Shown here: one piece after another, positions 46,980-53,456 of the stretch | Layout: each line of letters starts with the position of its first letter | Numbering within the stretch: position 1 is the stretch's first letter | Source of the DNA: Maribacter huludaoensis | Lineage (GTDB): Bacteria > Bacteroidota > Bacteroidia > Flavobacteriales > Flavobacteriaceae | Length of the DNA: 64,000 bases | Reading direction: 5' to 3' | NCBI RefSeq assembly: GCF_029350945.1 | Contig: NZ_JARKMS010000006.1 | Span: forward strand, 124,001 to 188,000 | Notes under the pieces: generated by a model | What the model saw: the letters and a program-made list of their open reading frames with translations, nothing else | Told to the model about the DNA's origin: nothing | Database searches by the model: none | Made by a program: the position numbers and the translations under genes

Positions 46980-47825
46980 ATGAACAAAGTAGTACTCTTT
47001 TTATTGGCAATTGTTGCTTCCTTAACTGTTGAGGCACAAATAAATACACCTGCTCCTAGTCCAGCGGCAAAAATTATGCAGACCGTAGGTTTGACAGAGG
47101 TAAGTATTGACTATTCTAGACCTTCTATGAGAGGTAGAAAGATTTTTGGCGACCTAGTGCCTTTTGATAAATTATGGAGAACAGGAGCTAATGGATATAC
47201 TTTGGTAACTTTTGACTCTGATGTAACCATAGGAGGAAAAGAGGTAAAAGCTGGTACATATTCTATATTCACTAAGCCAGGAGCTTCTAATTGGGAAGTA
47301 TTTGTGTATACTGATACCGTTGGCGGTGGTACACCTAGTAACTGGGAAGATAACAAGGTCGTTGCACAGTTAACTGTGCCGGTCTACAAAATGGAAATGC
47401 CGGTTGAAACTTTTACGATTACTATTGACGATGTAAAAAGTAATGGTGCAAATATTGGTATCATTTGGGAAAATACTTATGTAGCTATTCCTTTTACAGT
47501 TGATACGGACACTACTGTAATGAGCAGTATCGATAAAGCTTTGAACGGTCCATCGGCTGGTGATTATTACGCTGCTGCCGTGTACTATTCAAGTGAGGGT
47601 AAAGACATCAACAAAGCTAAAGAATGGATGAACAAAGCTATGTCCATGACAGAAAAGCCGGCATTTTGGCAGCTAAGACAACAGTCTTTGATTTTAGCAA
47701 AAGCGGGCGATAAAAAAGGTGCTATTGAAGTAGCTAAAAAATCATTGGCGGGTGCTACTGCGGCCGGTAACAATGATTATATAAAAATGAACAATGATTC
47801 TATAAAAGAATGGAGTTCAAAATAA
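46980..47825 (+). CDS. DUF2911 domain secreted protein
   Basis: 281 residues. Signal peptide (to VEAQ), then the DUF2911 fold: VSIDYSRPSMRGRKIFGDLV, WRTGANGYTLVTFDSDVTIG, KAGTYSIFTKPGASNWEVF. The last 80 residues are helical and TPR-like (AKEWMNKAMSMTEKPAFWQL). Unknown function, widely seen in Bacteroidota periplasm. It shares a bidirectional terminator with the convergent galK. Confidence 0.85.
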   Translation: MNKVVLFLLAIVASLTVEAQINTPAPSPAAKIMQTVGLTEVSIDYSRPSMRGRKIFGDLVPFDKLWRTGANGYTLVTFDSDVTIGGKEVKAGTYSIFTKPGASNWEVFVYTDTVGGGTPSNWEDNKVVAQLTVPVYKMEMPVETFTITIDDVKSNGANIGIIWENTYVAIPFTVDTDTTVMSSIDKALNGPSAGDYYAAAVYYSSEGKDINKAKEWMNKAMSMTEKPAFWQLRQQSLILAKAGDKKGAIEVAKKSLAGATAAGNNDYIKMNNDSIKEWSSK

Positions 47826-47899: not shown

Positions 47900-49057
47900 T
47901 TATTCAAAGACCTTTACACCGTCATCAATTGCTAAATGGTAATATTCCGCATCAATATCCGTTTGATCCTTATACTGTTCTAGCATAGATTTTATATTAA
48001 AATCTAAATTTTCTGTTTTCATGAGGTTAATGGTGCAACCACCAAATCCGCCTCCCATCATTCTGGAACCTACGACCCCTTCTAGGTTTTCACCAATTTT
48101 TACCAAGGCATCCAGTTCAGCGGTAGTAATCTCATATTGTTTAGACATTGCCCAATGCCCTTCTTTTAGTACATCTCCAACAGCATAAGCATTACCTTCT
48201 GTTAGTACGTTCATCATTTTGCGAACCCTGTTATTTTCTTCAATTACATATTTGGCTCGTTGCGCATCTATGCTGCTAACGTCATTTTTAACGGTAACTA
48301 AATCTTGTAAGGTTACATCTCTTAAAGATGTTATTTCCGGTCTGTTCTTTTGAACTTCCTTTACAATGTTTTCGCAAGAAACGCGCCTTTTGTTATATTC
48401 AGAATCAACGGCCAAATTATGCTTGATATTAGAATTCACCAGTACCCAACTGTAGCCATCTAAATTAATAGGAATATAACTATGGCTTAAATCTTTACAA
48501 TCTAAGAAGAAGGCATTTCCTTTTTTGCCGAAGAGCACGGCATATTGATCCATCAAACCGCAGTTAAGGCCAATTTTATGTTCTGCCTCTTGTGCTATTA
48601 AAGCAATATCCTCTCTTGAAATCTCTTTGTCCGATACTTTGGTAATTGCGTAAATAAATCCGCAACAGAGTGCAGCAGAGGAGGAGAGGCCGGATCCAAT
48701 AGGTATATCTCCACCAAAAACACAATCCATTCCTTTTAACGGGTATTTTTTTGCAATAAGTATTTCTATAATTGCTTTAAAATAGTTTCCCCAAAAAGAT
48801 GTGAACTTTTCATGTTCGCCACTTAATTGAAAAACTATTTTTTCTGGTTGGGTTAAAAAAGTTTCAATTTGAATATTATTATTGTCATTGCCCGATACAG
48901 CAAAGTAAATCCCTTTTTCAATAGATGCCGGTAATACCAACCCTTCGTTGTAATCTGTATGTTCACCAATTAAATTAATACGTCCGGGAGCTTTTATAAG
49001 TATGGGCTGGCTGTTGTAATTTTCCGTAAAATAGGATTTAATTTCTTTATGTATCAT
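47900..49057 (-). CDS. galK: Galactokinase
   Basis: 385 residues. GHMP kinase features in order: APGRINLIGEHTDYNEG near the N-terminus, GGDIPIGSGLSSSAALCCG (ATP-binding), NCGLMDQYAVLFGK with the catalytic Asp, and GSRMMGGGFGGCTINL near the C-terminus. It phosphorylates galactose to galactose-1-phosphate in the Leloir pathway. It lies 19 bp downstream of the sodium:solute symporter, suggesting that transporter brings in galactose or a related sugar. Confidence 0.95.
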   Translation of the reverse strand: MIHKEIKSYFTENYNSQPILIKAPGRINLIGEHTDYNEGLVLPASIEKGIYFAVSGNDNNNIQIETFLTQPEKIVFQLSGEHEKFTSFWGNYFKAIIEILIAKKYPLKGMDCVFGGDIPIGSGLSSSAALCCGFIYAITKVSDKEISREDIALIAQEAEHKIGLNCGLMDQYAVLFGKKGNAFFLDCKDLSHSYIPINLDGYSWVLVNSNIKHNLAVDSEYNKRRVSCENIVKEVQKNRPEITSLRDVTLQDLVTVKNDVSSIDAQRAKYVIEENNRVRKMMNVLTEGNAYAVGDVLKEGHWAMSKQYEITTAELDALVKIGENLEGVVGSRMMGGGFGGCTINLMKTENLDFNIKSMLEQYKDQTDIDAEYYHLAIDDGVKVFE

Positions 49058-49076: not shown

Positions 49077-50813
49077 TTAGTTGGTTGTCAATGGTTTTTT
49101 TAACATACGGTCAAAAGCTTCAAATATAAATGATATGATAATGACCAAGGCTGCACCAAAAAAGTTAAGCCATAGGTACCCTAACTTCTCTTGACCAGAA
49201 GGGTAGATGTGAATTAAGTAATAATAAATAATACAAATGATTACCTGCGTAACCACAGCTGCGAAAAAAACAGCATTTCCCTTTATGAACTTAAAGAAAA
49301 AAGCAATTAGGAATATACCCAGTACATTGCCGTAGAAGATACTGCCTATAATATTTACTAACTGTATTAGATTATCAAATAGATTGGCCACACAAGCAAT
49401 TAGTATGGCAATAATTCCCCAGATCAACGTAAATACCTTGGACGCCTTAACATAATGTTCTTCGGACAGGTTTTCTGTTTTTCTATTTCTTTTATATAAA
49501 TCCAATGCTGTTATGGTGCCCAGTGCATTAAGCTCAGATGCGGTCGATGACATTGCTGCAGATAATATTACCGCCAACAATAACCCGACAAGCCCTGTGG
49601 GTAAGTTGTGAAGTATAAAATGTATGAAAACGTAATCTTTGTCATTGGTCTCAACAGTATCGTTAGCCTGTTTGATCAAAGATTTAGCGGCAATACGGTT
49701 GGTACTGTCTTTTTTATTTATTCGTATAATCTGTTTTTTTGCTTCTTCTACAGCTGTAAATTCTTTTATCTCCAAGGCCGCCGAGAATTTATTTTGAGCA
49801 ATTCTTTTCTCCGCTTCCAGTGCAATTTGTCCTTCTTGTAACAATTTGTAGTCATCTGCGTAATTAGACTCCATTACGGCTTGTGTAGCAGAGGGGTTAA
49901 AATTTAGTGGTGACGGATTGTACTGATAAAACACGAACACCATAACACCTACCAAGAGTATAAAAAATTGCATGGGTATTTTAAGTACTGCGTTGAAAAT
50001 AAGCCCCAATTGACTTTCTCTTATAGATTTACCTGATAGATAGCGTTGTACCTGACTCTGATCAGTACCAAAATATGCCAAGAACAAGAATAGGCCACCA
50101 GTAATTCCGCTCCAAAAGGTATATCGGCTAGAGGTGTCCAGGTCAAAGTTCAATATTTCTAGCTTGTTACTGGCGCCTGCAATTTTCATTGCTTTACTAA
50201 AGGTAATGTCCGAAGGTAGATAGCCTAGTATAAAAAAGAATGTAATGAACATACCGGTCATAATAATGAACATCTGCTGTTTTTGGGTTACGCTAACAGC
50301 CTTTGTACCACCTGAAACAGTATATATAATCACCAAGGTGCCAATTATTATGTTTAAGGTTCGTAAATCCCAACCCAGCACAGCGGATAGTATAATGGAG
50401 GGTGCAAAAATTGTGATACCCGCAGCCAATCCTCTTTGTATCAGAAATAAAATAGCGGCTAATGAACGAGTTTTAAGGTCAAACCTGCCTTCTAAAAATT
50501 CATAGGCGGTATATACCTTCATTTTATGGTATAACGGAATAAACACCATACAAATGATAATCATGGCCAATGGAAGTCCAAAGTAGAACTGTACAAAACC
50601 CATACCGTCATGAAATGCCTGGCCTGGAGTGGATAAAAAGGTAATTGCACTGGCCTGCGTAGCCATAACTGATAAGCCGATCGTCCACCATTTAGAATCA
50701 TTACCGCCACGAACGTAATCATCTACGTTTTTACTTCCTTTGGTTTTCCAAACTCCATAGGCTACTATAAAGAGAAGTGTACCGGCAAGAATAATCCAAT
50801 CTAATCCTTCCAT
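49077..50813 (-). CDS. Sodium:solute symporter with an inserted hydrophilic segment
   Basis: 578 residues, inner membrane, SGLT-like fold of about thirteen helices. LSVMATQASAITFLSTPGQA and the GTDQSQVQRYLSGKS stretch match the SSS family. Residues about 301-395 form a polar, largely helical, charge-rich insertion (ALEAEKRIAQNKFSAALEIK), longer than in usual members. It is probably a sugar symporter because galK follows. A 37-residue membrane peptide gene ends one base before its ATG. Confidence 0.9.
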   Translation of the reverse strand: MEGLDWIILAGTLLFIVAYGVWKTKGSKNVDDYVRGGNDSKWWTIGLSVMATQASAITFLSTPGQAFHDGMGFVQFYFGLPLAMIIICMVFIPLYHKMKVYTAYEFLEGRFDLKTRSLAAILFLIQRGLAAGITIFAPSIILSAVLGWDLRTLNIIIGTLVIIYTVSGGTKAVSVTQKQQMFIIMTGMFITFFFILGYLPSDITFSKAMKIAGASNKLEILNFDLDTSSRYTFWSGITGGLFLFLAYFGTDQSQVQRYLSGKSIRESQLGLIFNAVLKIPMQFFILLVGVMVFVFYQYNPSPLNFNPSATQAVMESNYADDYKLLQEGQIALEAEKRIAQNKFSAALEIKEFTAVEEAKKQIIRINKKDSTNRIAAKSLIKQANDTVETNDKDYVFIHFILHNLPTGLVGLLLAVILSAAMSSTASELNALGTITALDLYKRNRKTENLSEEHYVKASKVFTLIWGIIAILIACVANLFDNLIQLVNIIGSIFYGNVLGIFLIAFFFKFIKGNAVFFAAVVTQVIICIIYYYLIHIYPSGQEKLGYLWLNFFGAALVIIISFIFEAFDRMLKKPLTTN

Positions 50814-50814
50814 G

Positions 50815-50928
50815 TTAATTAAATGAAGTCATTACGTAATAGAAGACTAGAACATATATAAGATTAAGCAATAAAACTATGCTATACTCTTTTTTCCAAG
50901 TTCTATTTTCATCCCGATTTTTACTCAT
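50815..50928 (-). CDS. 37-residue single-pass membrane peptide, coupled to the symporter
   Basis: The frame opens MSKNRDENRTWKKEYS, followed by the hydrophobic helix IVLLLNLIYVLVFYYVM, and ends SFN. The basic N-terminus suggests it faces the cytoplasm. Its ATG overlaps the TGA of the PIG-L gene by 4 bp (ATGA), and its TAA lies 1 bp before the symporter ATG, so all three are translated in a chain. Too short for family recognition; an accessory peptide of the transporter is a fair inference. Confidence 0.6.
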   Translation of the reverse strand: MSKNRDENRTWKKEYSIVLLLNLIYVLVFYYVMTSFN

Positions 50929-53456
50929 CCTTTAATTTTGGCTTTCGTTTCAACTTTATCTTTTCCAACGGATAACATATTGGAGAATAGCTTATATGCT
51001 CCTGGAACACCTGCTGGCAATTCCCTAAAAAAGCTGAGTCCGGTATAAATATAGTTTCCCTTTCCATACGGGGCAATTAAAAGACTACCTTTTGTGGATT
51101 CTTCTCCTTCATCGTGCATTTCTAAAATAGGGGTGAATTCTTCGCTCCATTTATTGGGGAAATACAAACCGCGTTCTTGAACCCAGCCGTTAAAATCACT
51201 CTCCTTAATTTCATTTGGAAATTGTACAAGTGAATTATCTCTTGAAATAATTTTTACATCAGAGTTTTCATCGGTAACACGGTCCCTGGATATTTCTAAC
51301 TCATATGGCGCTATATTTTCAAATTGAGCGCCCCATCTACTTGCCGTGTTATATTGTACGACTACGTTACCACCGTTTTTTATATAATCTAGGATAAATT
51401 TTTGCTTAAATTTAAGTTCCTCAACTACGTTATAGGCGCGTATACCTAAAACGATTGCATCGTACTTTTGTAAAGATTCTTTAGTAATTGTTGCAGGGTC
51501 TATTAATTGAACGTTATAACCTATTTGCTCTAAACTGGTAGGTACGGCATCCCCTGCACCCATAATGTAGCCAATATTTTCTCCTGCTTTTTCTATATTT
51601 AATCGTACTACCTTAGCTTCTGCAGGTAACAATACGGTTTGTGTTGGCACGTGATCGTACGCTATCGTTATAAGTTCTTTGCTTATCTCTTTCCCGTTCA
51701 ATTTAATGATAGGGGAGATGTAACTTTCATTTTCTGTAGCAGGCGGACTTAGAATAAAGCTAACCGTTTGTTCGTCACCTTTTTTAGCAATAGAGAACGT
51801 TTGCGATTTTTGGTCTACTTGCCAACCTGTACCATATTTTAATTCTACGGTTCCTGAAACATTGTCCTTGTGAGCTTTAATGGTAACTGGTATTCTCTTT
51901 TGAGATGCATTTGCAAAAATCAAGACTTTGTCTGCAAAACTTGCCGTTGCTTCTGGGATGACTTCAAACGGCTGATAAATCTCACCTTTATCGGGTTTTG
52001 CATACTTATATACAACAGGTTTTGAAACAGGAAATGCTACTCCGTTTATATTCAAATTAAATATTGCGTTGAACGCCCTGGGGGTTTCTGGTTTCCCTAT
52101 TAAATTAGTATTCTCTACGGTATAGGTGCCCAATGTTCCTTTTTCCATTAACCAATAAGGACTTGTAAAATTTGTGGAGTCCGGGACGAAAAAATCAATT
52201 TCTTTAGAGAACATTTCATTATTGTTCAAAGCTATACTTTCAATGTTGGTGCTCTGCTTGTTTATTAGAACGGATTTTAGCTCAACGTTAATGTTACTTC
52301 TATTAAGTGCCTGTATTTCTATGGTAACTTCCTCTCCAGGATTGGTGTAGCCCGTTTTGGTGTAAGCCTCTAAGTGAAATCCTGATATCGCTGAAATAAT
52401 ATCTGTTAATTCGGCAATTTTCAATTCCTTCCAATGATCGTTTGAAACATTCTGCAGTAATTGATAGGCTTTAAGTAAATTGGGCAAGTGTACCGTTGGG
52501 TCCTTAAAATTGAAGTTATCTTCTATAGCATATAGGATATCCCCAATTTCTTTACCGCCTTCAATTCTAGACCATGTTGTATCAATACCATCAAAAAGAT
52601 TGGTTTTGTCTTTTGGCAAATCGCCCTTTAATAATTCTATATATTCATCTTCAGAGCCTCTTGAGCTTAACCTTCCAAATCCTTGGCACAAATGTTGGCT
52701 GCTGGCCAATGAGGAAATTTCATTGTTAGACTTACCTAGAATAGGATAGTAGGTGCCTACATCCATATGAAGCAGATTCGTTTTGTCCGCCGCTTTAAAT
52801 TTTTCTTGGCTACCATAAAACCACCAAGAAGTATTAAAGAATAATCTTTTTGGTTGCCAGGTACTTGTTGAAGATAATTGCTGGGCATATGCATTTGGAT
52901 CATTGGCAAGATCAAAGGCTTCATAACTTAGCATGGCAGACGAAGTATGATGCCCATGTGTGGTACCAGGGGTTCTGTGGTCAAATCTATTAATGATGAC
53001 ATCTGGTTTAAACTTGCGTATGGTCCTTACGACATCACCAAGAATGGCTTCCTTGTCCCAAATTTTAAGAGTTTCAATAGGCTGTTTGGAATAGCCGAAG
53101 TCATTTGCACGACTAAAAAACTGCTCGCCACCATCAACTCTTCTTGCCGCCAATAATTCTTGGGTTCTTAATACTCCTAAAAGTTCACGTAATTCAGGTC
53201 CAATTAAATTTTGGCCCCCATCGCCTCTGGTTAAAGAAAGGTAAGCGGTTCTAGCCTTTACATTATTAGCTAAATATGCAATTAATCGAGTGTTTTCATC
53301 ATCTGGGTGTGCTGCAATGTAAAGTGCCGTGCCCAAGAAATTTAATTTTTCAATAGAATGGTAAATGTCAGTTGTAGAACTATTTTTATTGCTTTGGGCT
53401 TGGAGGGTATTAAGTATAAAAAAACTACAGGTTAAAAAACCTAATATATATCGCAT
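50925..53456 (-). CDS. PIG-L family deacetylase, large secreted two-part protein
   Basis: 843 residues. Signal peptide (to TLQAQ), then a PIG-L/LmbE domain (about 30-290) with AHPDDENTRL (His50, Asp52, Asp53 for zinc) and HGHHT. A long middle with beta-sandwich character (about 330-620) follows, then a C-terminal domain about residues 640-830 (YDAIVLGIRAYNV, GGNVVVQYNTAS) that resembles glutamine-amidotransferase/ThuA-like folds. It likely removes acetyl groups from an amino sugar outside the cell. First gene of the symporter-galK operon. Confidence 0.88.
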   Translation of the reverse strand: MRYILGFLTCSFFILNTLQAQSNKNSSTTDIYHSIEKLNFLGTALYIAAHPDDENTRLIAYLANNVKARTAYLSLTRGDGGQNLIGPELRELLGVLRTQELLAARRVDGGEQFFSRANDFGYSKQPIETLKIWDKEAILGDVVRTIRKFKPDVIINRFDHRTPGTTHGHHTSSAMLSYEAFDLANDPNAYAQQLSSTSTWQPKRLFFNTSWWFYGSQEKFKAADKTNLLHMDVGTYYPILGKSNNEISSLASSQHLCQGFGRLSSRGSEDEYIELLKGDLPKDKTNLFDGIDTTWSRIEGGKEIGDILYAIEDNFNFKDPTVHLPNLLKAYQLLQNVSNDHWKELKIAELTDIISAISGFHLEAYTKTGYTNPGEEVTIEIQALNRSNINVELKSVLINKQSTNIESIALNNNEMFSKEIDFFVPDSTNFTSPYWLMEKGTLGTYTVENTNLIGKPETPRAFNAIFNLNINGVAFPVSKPVVYKYAKPDKGEIYQPFEVIPEATASFADKVLIFANASQKRIPVTIKAHKDNVSGTVELKYGTGWQVDQKSQTFSIAKKGDEQTVSFILSPPATENESYISPIIKLNGKEISKELITIAYDHVPTQTVLLPAEAKVVRLNIEKAGENIGYIMGAGDAVPTSLEQIGYNVQLIDPATITKESLQKYDAIVLGIRAYNVVEELKFKQKFILDYIKNGGNVVVQYNTASRWGAQFENIAPYELEISRDRVTDENSDVKIISRDNSLVQFPNEIKESDFNGWVQERGLYFPNKWSEEFTPILEMHDEGEESTKGSLLIAPYGKGNYIYTGLSFFRELPAGVPGAYKLFSNMLSVGKDKVETKAKIKG

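Follow-up and report, generated by a model that had tools for sequence, protein, structure and literature searches.

A 37-residue single-helix membrane peptide as a probable accessory subunit of an SSS symporter subfamily in Bacteroidota

The DNA analysed here, called the window throughout, is a stretch of 64,000 nucleotides from Maribacter huludaoensis. On its minus strand a gene for a PIG-L type hydrolase, a very short ORF and a gene for a sodium/solute symporter follow one another, with the following features.

50925..53456, minus strand: PIG-L type hydrolase, 843 aa, with a signal-peptide-like start (PF02585, E 2.8e-13)
50815..50928, minus strand: gene for a 37-aa single-helix peptide (ORF, kept frame, dN/dS)
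50830..50886, minus strand: hydrophobic helix at residues 15-33 of the peptide (from sequence; predicted N-in/C-out)
49077..50813, minus strand: SSS (SSF, PF00474) sodium/solute symporter, 578 aa (family scan; 13-helix core)
49629..49904, minus strand: insert of 92 residues (304-395) in the symporter, a helical hairpin in the model and a mark of the subfamily

The short ORF starts with the ATG at 50928-50926 and ends with a stop codon whose last base is 50815, and its product is MSKNRDENRTWKKEYSIVLLLNLIYVLVFYYVMTSFN (37 aa). Since the frame spans just 38 codons from stop to stop, this ATG is practically the sole candidate for the start of the peptide. The TGA of PIG-L lies at 50927-50925, giving an ATGA overlap with the start of the peptide, and a single base separates the peptide stop from the symporter ATG at 50813; both junctions had been described in this way in the original prediction, which did not give the strand, and were confirmed. 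The same is true of the single hydrophobic helix after a basic start, as the N-terminal part of the peptide is rich in K/R and is followed by one hydrophobic stretch at about residues 15-33, while the fused AlphaFold2 model described below has the helix at residues 14-36.

Related loci were picked via the relative of PIG-L, and the best 80 of 568 (near loci) came from Maribacter, Zobellia, Arenibacter, Cellulophaga, Flagellimonas, Kordia, Olleya and other genera. In all 80 near loci the gene order was PIG-L, a short gap and the symporter, and in all 80 the gap encoded a peptide of 32-45 aa with an ATG start (76 were identified by script and 4 by eye, where the script had chosen another frame). 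Within the genus, all 24 of the other genomes examined encode the peptide (identity 59-89%, E no higher than 2.3e-12), or 25 of 25 with the genome of the window included. Because the ORF is kept in these 24 genomes and at the 80 PIG-L loci, it is not a chance ORF, and judged from this conservation ORF 50815..50928 is a protein-coding gene. Among the 49 distinct near sequences, W11, K12, Y15, N22, Y25 and F29 are invariant. The peptide is evidently under purifying selection, with synonymous change exceeding nonsynonymous change (pooled pS 0.51, pN 0.19; median dN/dS 0.26). These values come from 183 pairs out of 3160 possible, kept after synonymously saturated or nearly identical pairs had been dropped. 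A set of 32 diverse peptides from across the phylum could be aligned almost without gaps from the W to the C-terminus, and they follow the pattern W-x3-Y, a helix and then mostly F/Y-Y-x-F/L-T/M, with a PP stretch ahead of the W in many distant peptides. The K/R residues of the N-terminal and C-terminal flanks numbered 270 vs 21 in the 80 near peptides and 217 vs 49 in 80 far peptides; by this count an N-in orientation is predicted for all 80 near and for 74 of the 80 far peptides (5 ties and 1 opposite). The original prediction had named the conservation of frame and helix in relatives as a check, and would have been refuted by relatives that keep the spacing without the reading frame; what we found is that frame, helix and charge pattern are all retained, in near as well as in distant relatives.

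We examined the wider distribution in a sample of 395 genomes of the phylum, which we take to be Bacteroidota because the named loci come from Maribacter and its relatives. A profile search of these genomes with the peptide led to loci where it precedes an SSS symporter that shares only 37-51% identity with the window symporter; no PIG-L match occurred in the 10 kb that were read there. Searching the same 395 genomes with the symporter of the window separated two groups, with best E values of 4e-109 or below vs 7e-58 or above. The first group, taken as the symporter subfamily, comprised 144 places in 143 of the 395 genomes; this number excludes 19 genomes whose best match (E 1e-45 to 7e-58) was another SSS, as well as a symporter fragment in G147 (E 5e-72, start missing) that fell between the groups. 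A short single-helix peptide was encoded directly upstream of the symporter at 135 of the 144 places. Within the family of the window the peptide was in this position at 39 of 39 places, 4-30 nt from the aligned symporter start, and the two remaining sampled genomes of the family had neither the peptide nor a symporter of the subfamily. Outside the family it was in place at 96 of 105 symporter places (some judged by eye), of which 89 had been fetched via the symporter and 16 came from the earlier peptide-profile loci. Eighty of these 96 peptides were measured and have 26-54 aa, except for three in longer frames (69, 80 and 107 codons) in which the start is uncertain, and five of the distant peptides (in G262, G410, G166, G328 and G253) were assigned by place and hydropathy only.

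In the 80 near loci a distance of 0-12 nt separates the peptide from the symporter start, and of the 74 distant loci in which the spacing was measured, 47 show a 4-nt overlap between the peptide stop and the symporter start. The ATGA coupling that had been noted in the window is therefore present, but its PIG-L side is local, being found in 12 of the 80 near loci, and what holds more widely is that the peptide ends near the start of the symporter, not that it overlaps PIG-L. As the near loci had been chosen via PIG-L, they provide no test of linkage to PIG-L. Of 89 distant places, 52 had PIG-L no more than about 1 kb upstream, and it may lie further off at some others; at the places read in families f38, f52, f62 and f65 there was no PIG-L beside the peptide while the symporter was present. 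The peptide thus goes with the symporter and not with PIG-L, which is a frequent but not obligatory upstream neighbour.

A 32-row profile of the peptide (A4), which was built partly from the same genomes in which it was counted, matched 134 of the 143 genomes with the symporter and 5 of the remaining 252 (E <= 0.003), showing the co-occurrence with one symporter subfamily that is looked for in an accessory subunit. Among the five matches outside the symporter genomes, that in G065 is real and that in G397 weak (2.6e-4 over 21 residues); the other three are short and lie inside frames of 674-870 codons. We also applied a rule for upstream ORFs (ATG start, 24-60 codons, one hydrophobic helix) to these loci and to control SSS genes, 27 in number after L166, L192 and L193 had been left out of 30. 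With a strict window, in which the ORF had to end between 30 nt before and 10 nt after the symporter start, such an ORF was found at 78 of 80 near loci, 62 of 89 distant loci and 0 of 27 other SSS genes. Widening the window to 90 nt before and 60 nt after gave 78 of 80, 70 of 89 and 2 of 27, so that short ORFs ahead of the symporter are not confined entirely to this subfamily; the two extra control hits leave the main counts unchanged. Searches of plasmids and viral contigs gave no relatives.

The two control loci with such an ORF, L172 and L174, belong to related genomes and carry SGLT-type SSS genes; their one-helix ORF (38-57 aa, 55-64 nt upstream) has another sequence with K/R at the C-terminal end, and may represent a third type of small partner. 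At 12 loci of families f17 and f18 (L244-L246, L248, L249, L255, L257, L264, L268, L272, L273 and L276), an additional hydrophobic ORF of 50-66 aa stands just ahead of the peptide and ends about 105-147 nt before the symporter.

The peptide was missing upstream of the symporter at nine places (L227, L267, L285, L286, L288 and L294-L297). In five of these nine cases, profile A4 located the peptide elsewhere in the same genome (E 7e-10 or better), about 15 kb from the symporter in four f38 genomes and about 108 kb from it in G313. In the f38 genomes G138, G076 and G092, a convergent transporter gene, which we take to be of the SLC13/DASS type, ends beside the displaced peptide. The peptide was undetectable with the A4 profile in 4 of the 143 symporter genomes (G200, G151, G174 and G182), and it is therefore not needed everywhere. 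The converse was seen in G065, in which PIG-L and an intact peptide are followed by a symporter stub of about 27 residues (L328, 4900-5400), with no further symporter match within the 11 kb read.

Orphan copies of the peptide gene, apart from the symporter, stand at L161, L163, L329 and L330, and the three f38 cases are those with the SLC13-like gene. In f38 (L149, L154, L161, L163 and L330) gltX is close to the peptide, and at L161, L163 and L330 an additional gene, presumably WbqC-like, precedes the peptide in the position where PIG-L stands elsewhere.

A DUF2911 gene (46980-47825 in the window) was found near the module in 50 of the 80 near loci, and in a distant lineage a gene that looks similar by eye immediately precedes PIG-L (L328, 1657-2493; L332, 9012-9848); the DUF2911 gene and the module possibly belong to the same pathway. 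The galK gene (47900-49057 in the window) was rejected as a functional partner; of 80 loci, no more than 9 have it next to the module, and as 8 of these 9 are named Maribacter it says little about the substrate.

The symporter subfamily can be recognized by two marks that are apparent from its sequence, a long loop insert and an end right after the 13-helix core. The insert measures 88-126 residues in 78 near symporters and 82-91 in 16 distant ones, as compared to 6-24 in 28 other SSS proteins, and it is modelled as a helical hairpin (pLDDT blocks 84-93) that would lie on the periplasmic side. Beyond the C-terminus of the window symporter, there are 0-4 further residues in the 78 near and 0-2 in the 16 distant members, whereas 25 of the 28 other SSS proteins continue for 32-47 residues with one more helix. 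Structures were predicted with AlphaFold2 from read-through fusions, that is, from loci with peptide and symporter in one frame. The fusion model reached a pLDDT of 56.1 with an alignment of 23 rows, and a pLDDT of 70.9 and a pTM of 0.69 with 77 rows, which made it useful for the symporter. In a fold search the symporter part of the model (from the orthologue at L053) corresponded to the whole 13-helix SSS core, matching the sodium/iodide symporter (NIS; Z 36.0, 2.1 A over 447 residues) and SiaT (Z 34.0, 3.0 A over 458 residues). The fold alignments stopped at residue 505-506 of vSGLT and residue 549-555 of SGLT1/2, beyond which we place the last helix of these proteins, and among the SSS chains listed, 8zqq (from residue 12) was the only one aligned before model residue 38. 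The peptide region of the 77-row model had a pLDDT of 37-51 and yielded no usable interface or placement.

Having been retained with this symporter throughout the phylum, the peptide is probably an unrecognized small subunit of it. Pfam and NCBIfam returned no family for the window peptide or for nine distant peptides; NCBIfam returned none for the 49 near peptides and PHROGs none for the window peptide. Three candidates were judged to be chance matches, namely TolR (E 0.11 with the window peptide; weak), TIGR03745/DUF2976 (0.003 and 0.001 with one distant peptide; under the cut-offs) and monofunctional glycosyltransferase chains (E 0.031; weak). TIGR03647/DUF4212 (PF13937) resembles the peptide in being a short membrane protein whose gene stands immediately ahead of an SSS gene (VC_2705-type); however, it has 86 aa (profile of 77) vs 37 and its partner is another SSS gene. 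Its curated cut-off was reached by neither the window peptide nor the 49 near or 9 distant peptides, and the 86-aa protein used as positive control matched at E 5.8e-35. That subunit is itself encoded in the genome of the window, directly upstream of a second SSS gene (L111, contig C11, 1121-1381), so that short upstream partners of SSS symporters come in two unrelated kinds in a single cell.

By analogy, the closest in kind would be MAP17 on SGLT2. MAP17 (PDZK1IP1) consists of one helix and contacts TM13 of SGLT2, according to an excerpt of PMC10803289. With human SGLT1 and SGLT2 it provides, as may the peptide, a single-helix accessory protein of an SSS/SLC5 transporter, and a single transmembrane helix is indeed predicted for the peptide and its relatives. 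In contrast to the peptide, MAP17 is an animal protein, and the helix to which it binds is the last SGLT helix (TM13), which does not exist in the partner subfamily here. Pfam, which we take to include a MAP17 model, gave no match above cut-off for the window peptide or nine distant peptides. MetS, the small subunit of the NSS transporter MetP, is likewise a tiny co-encoded subunit of a sodium symporter, but its partner belongs to NSS and not to SSF. DUF3311 also adjoins an SSS gene, that of the pyruvate symporter MctP; it differs in giving no profile match and in belonging to different bacteria and a different symporter. An excerpt of PMC9100948 gives its function as unknown and its expression as falling with MctP. 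Term searches did not find 'accessory', 'small protein' or 'subunit' in the text of a review of prokaryotic SSS transporters (PMC7918813), or 'symporter' in a survey of small membrane proteins (PMC10903887), and paper searches, which covered open-licence literature, listed nothing on this peptide as judged by title and abstract.

Several other explanations of the peptide were considered. The position between PIG-L and the symporter would also suit a partner of PIG-L, e.g. a membrane anchor, as the ATGA overlap in the window and the 52 of 89 distant places with PIG-L might suggest, but this has been largely refuted and is now very improbable: the symporter stays at the places without PIG-L in f38, f52, f62 and f65, and at L285, L286 and L288 the peptide has been lost from between PIG-L and the symporter while both genes were kept. 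Since stop and start overlap or abut, the ORF could instead be a cis-acting leader that merely sets translation of the symporter. We regard this as just as improbable, as the amino-acid sequence, the helix and the charge are conserved, the symporter gene lacks an upstream peptide at nine places and the peptide is unlinked in five genomes. Survival apart from the symporter is not expected of a purely cis-acting leader ORF, and because the peptide persists unlinked in these five genomes it would act in trans. The peptide may also be made together with the symporter and have a regulatory role, as an inhibitor, a stabilizer or a protease adaptor under some conditions and not as a constant subunit. 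Small proteins that modulate transporters are known (AcrZ with AcrB, in excerpts of PMC7267776), and a few symporter genomes do without the peptide; the closeness of stop and start and the nearly one-to-one retention, however, favour a fixed stoichiometry, and a regulatory role seems to us unlikely.

No more likely than such a role is a split transporter, in which the peptide would replace, as a separate chain, the C-terminal TM14 of SGLT-type proteins that is missing in the subfamily; an SGLT-like final helix would have moved to a gene in front, producing a two-chain transporter across the phylum. The lengths are suggestive, as the 32-47 residues by which 25 of 28 other SSS proteins extend are about the length of the peptide and the subfamily has 0-4, and the orientation predicted for the peptide is the same as that of TM14, whose topology we take to be N-in as well. 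In a profile-profile scan the TM14 window came joint first of 85 (13.45 vs 13.48), although with a match probability of only 1.6%, and in a gapless scan of 30 SSS proteins the TM14 segment was not favoured. Moreover, NIS and SiaT are functional with 13 helices, three other SSS proteins without the C-terminal extension (L191, L194 and L195) are likewise without such a peptide, and the fused model provided no usable placement at TM14.

We therefore favour, with a probability of about 0.68, the explanation that this conserved coding gene, which is tied to the symporter subfamily and not to PIG-L and persists also in unlinked form, encodes a small integral membrane protein that serves the adjacent SSS symporter, and its phylum-wide subfamily, as a dedicated accessory subunit. 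The original prediction of an accessory peptide of the symporter is supported by a linkage that follows the symporter, and we count the five genomes with an unlinked peptide in its favour as well. According to this hypothesis, the peptide would be translated just ahead of the symporter, its stop codon overlapping the symporter start or lying within a few bases of it, and would be inserted into the membrane as a single helix, N-terminus on the cytoplasmic side (N-in/C-out). It may then pack against the 13-helix core and help the symporter to assemble, to be stable or to work; the orientation, the contact with the symporter and the effect on its stability or activity are what we would predict from the comparisons above.

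If this is correct, a symporter subfamily found in 143 of 395 sampled genomes is represented in the scanned family libraries without its second subunit, because the gene usually has fewer than 55 codons. Expressing these transporters, assaying them or solving their structures might then require the peptide, and the question of why a one-helix helper is needed by some SLC5-type transporters could be studied on a counterpart from bacteria.
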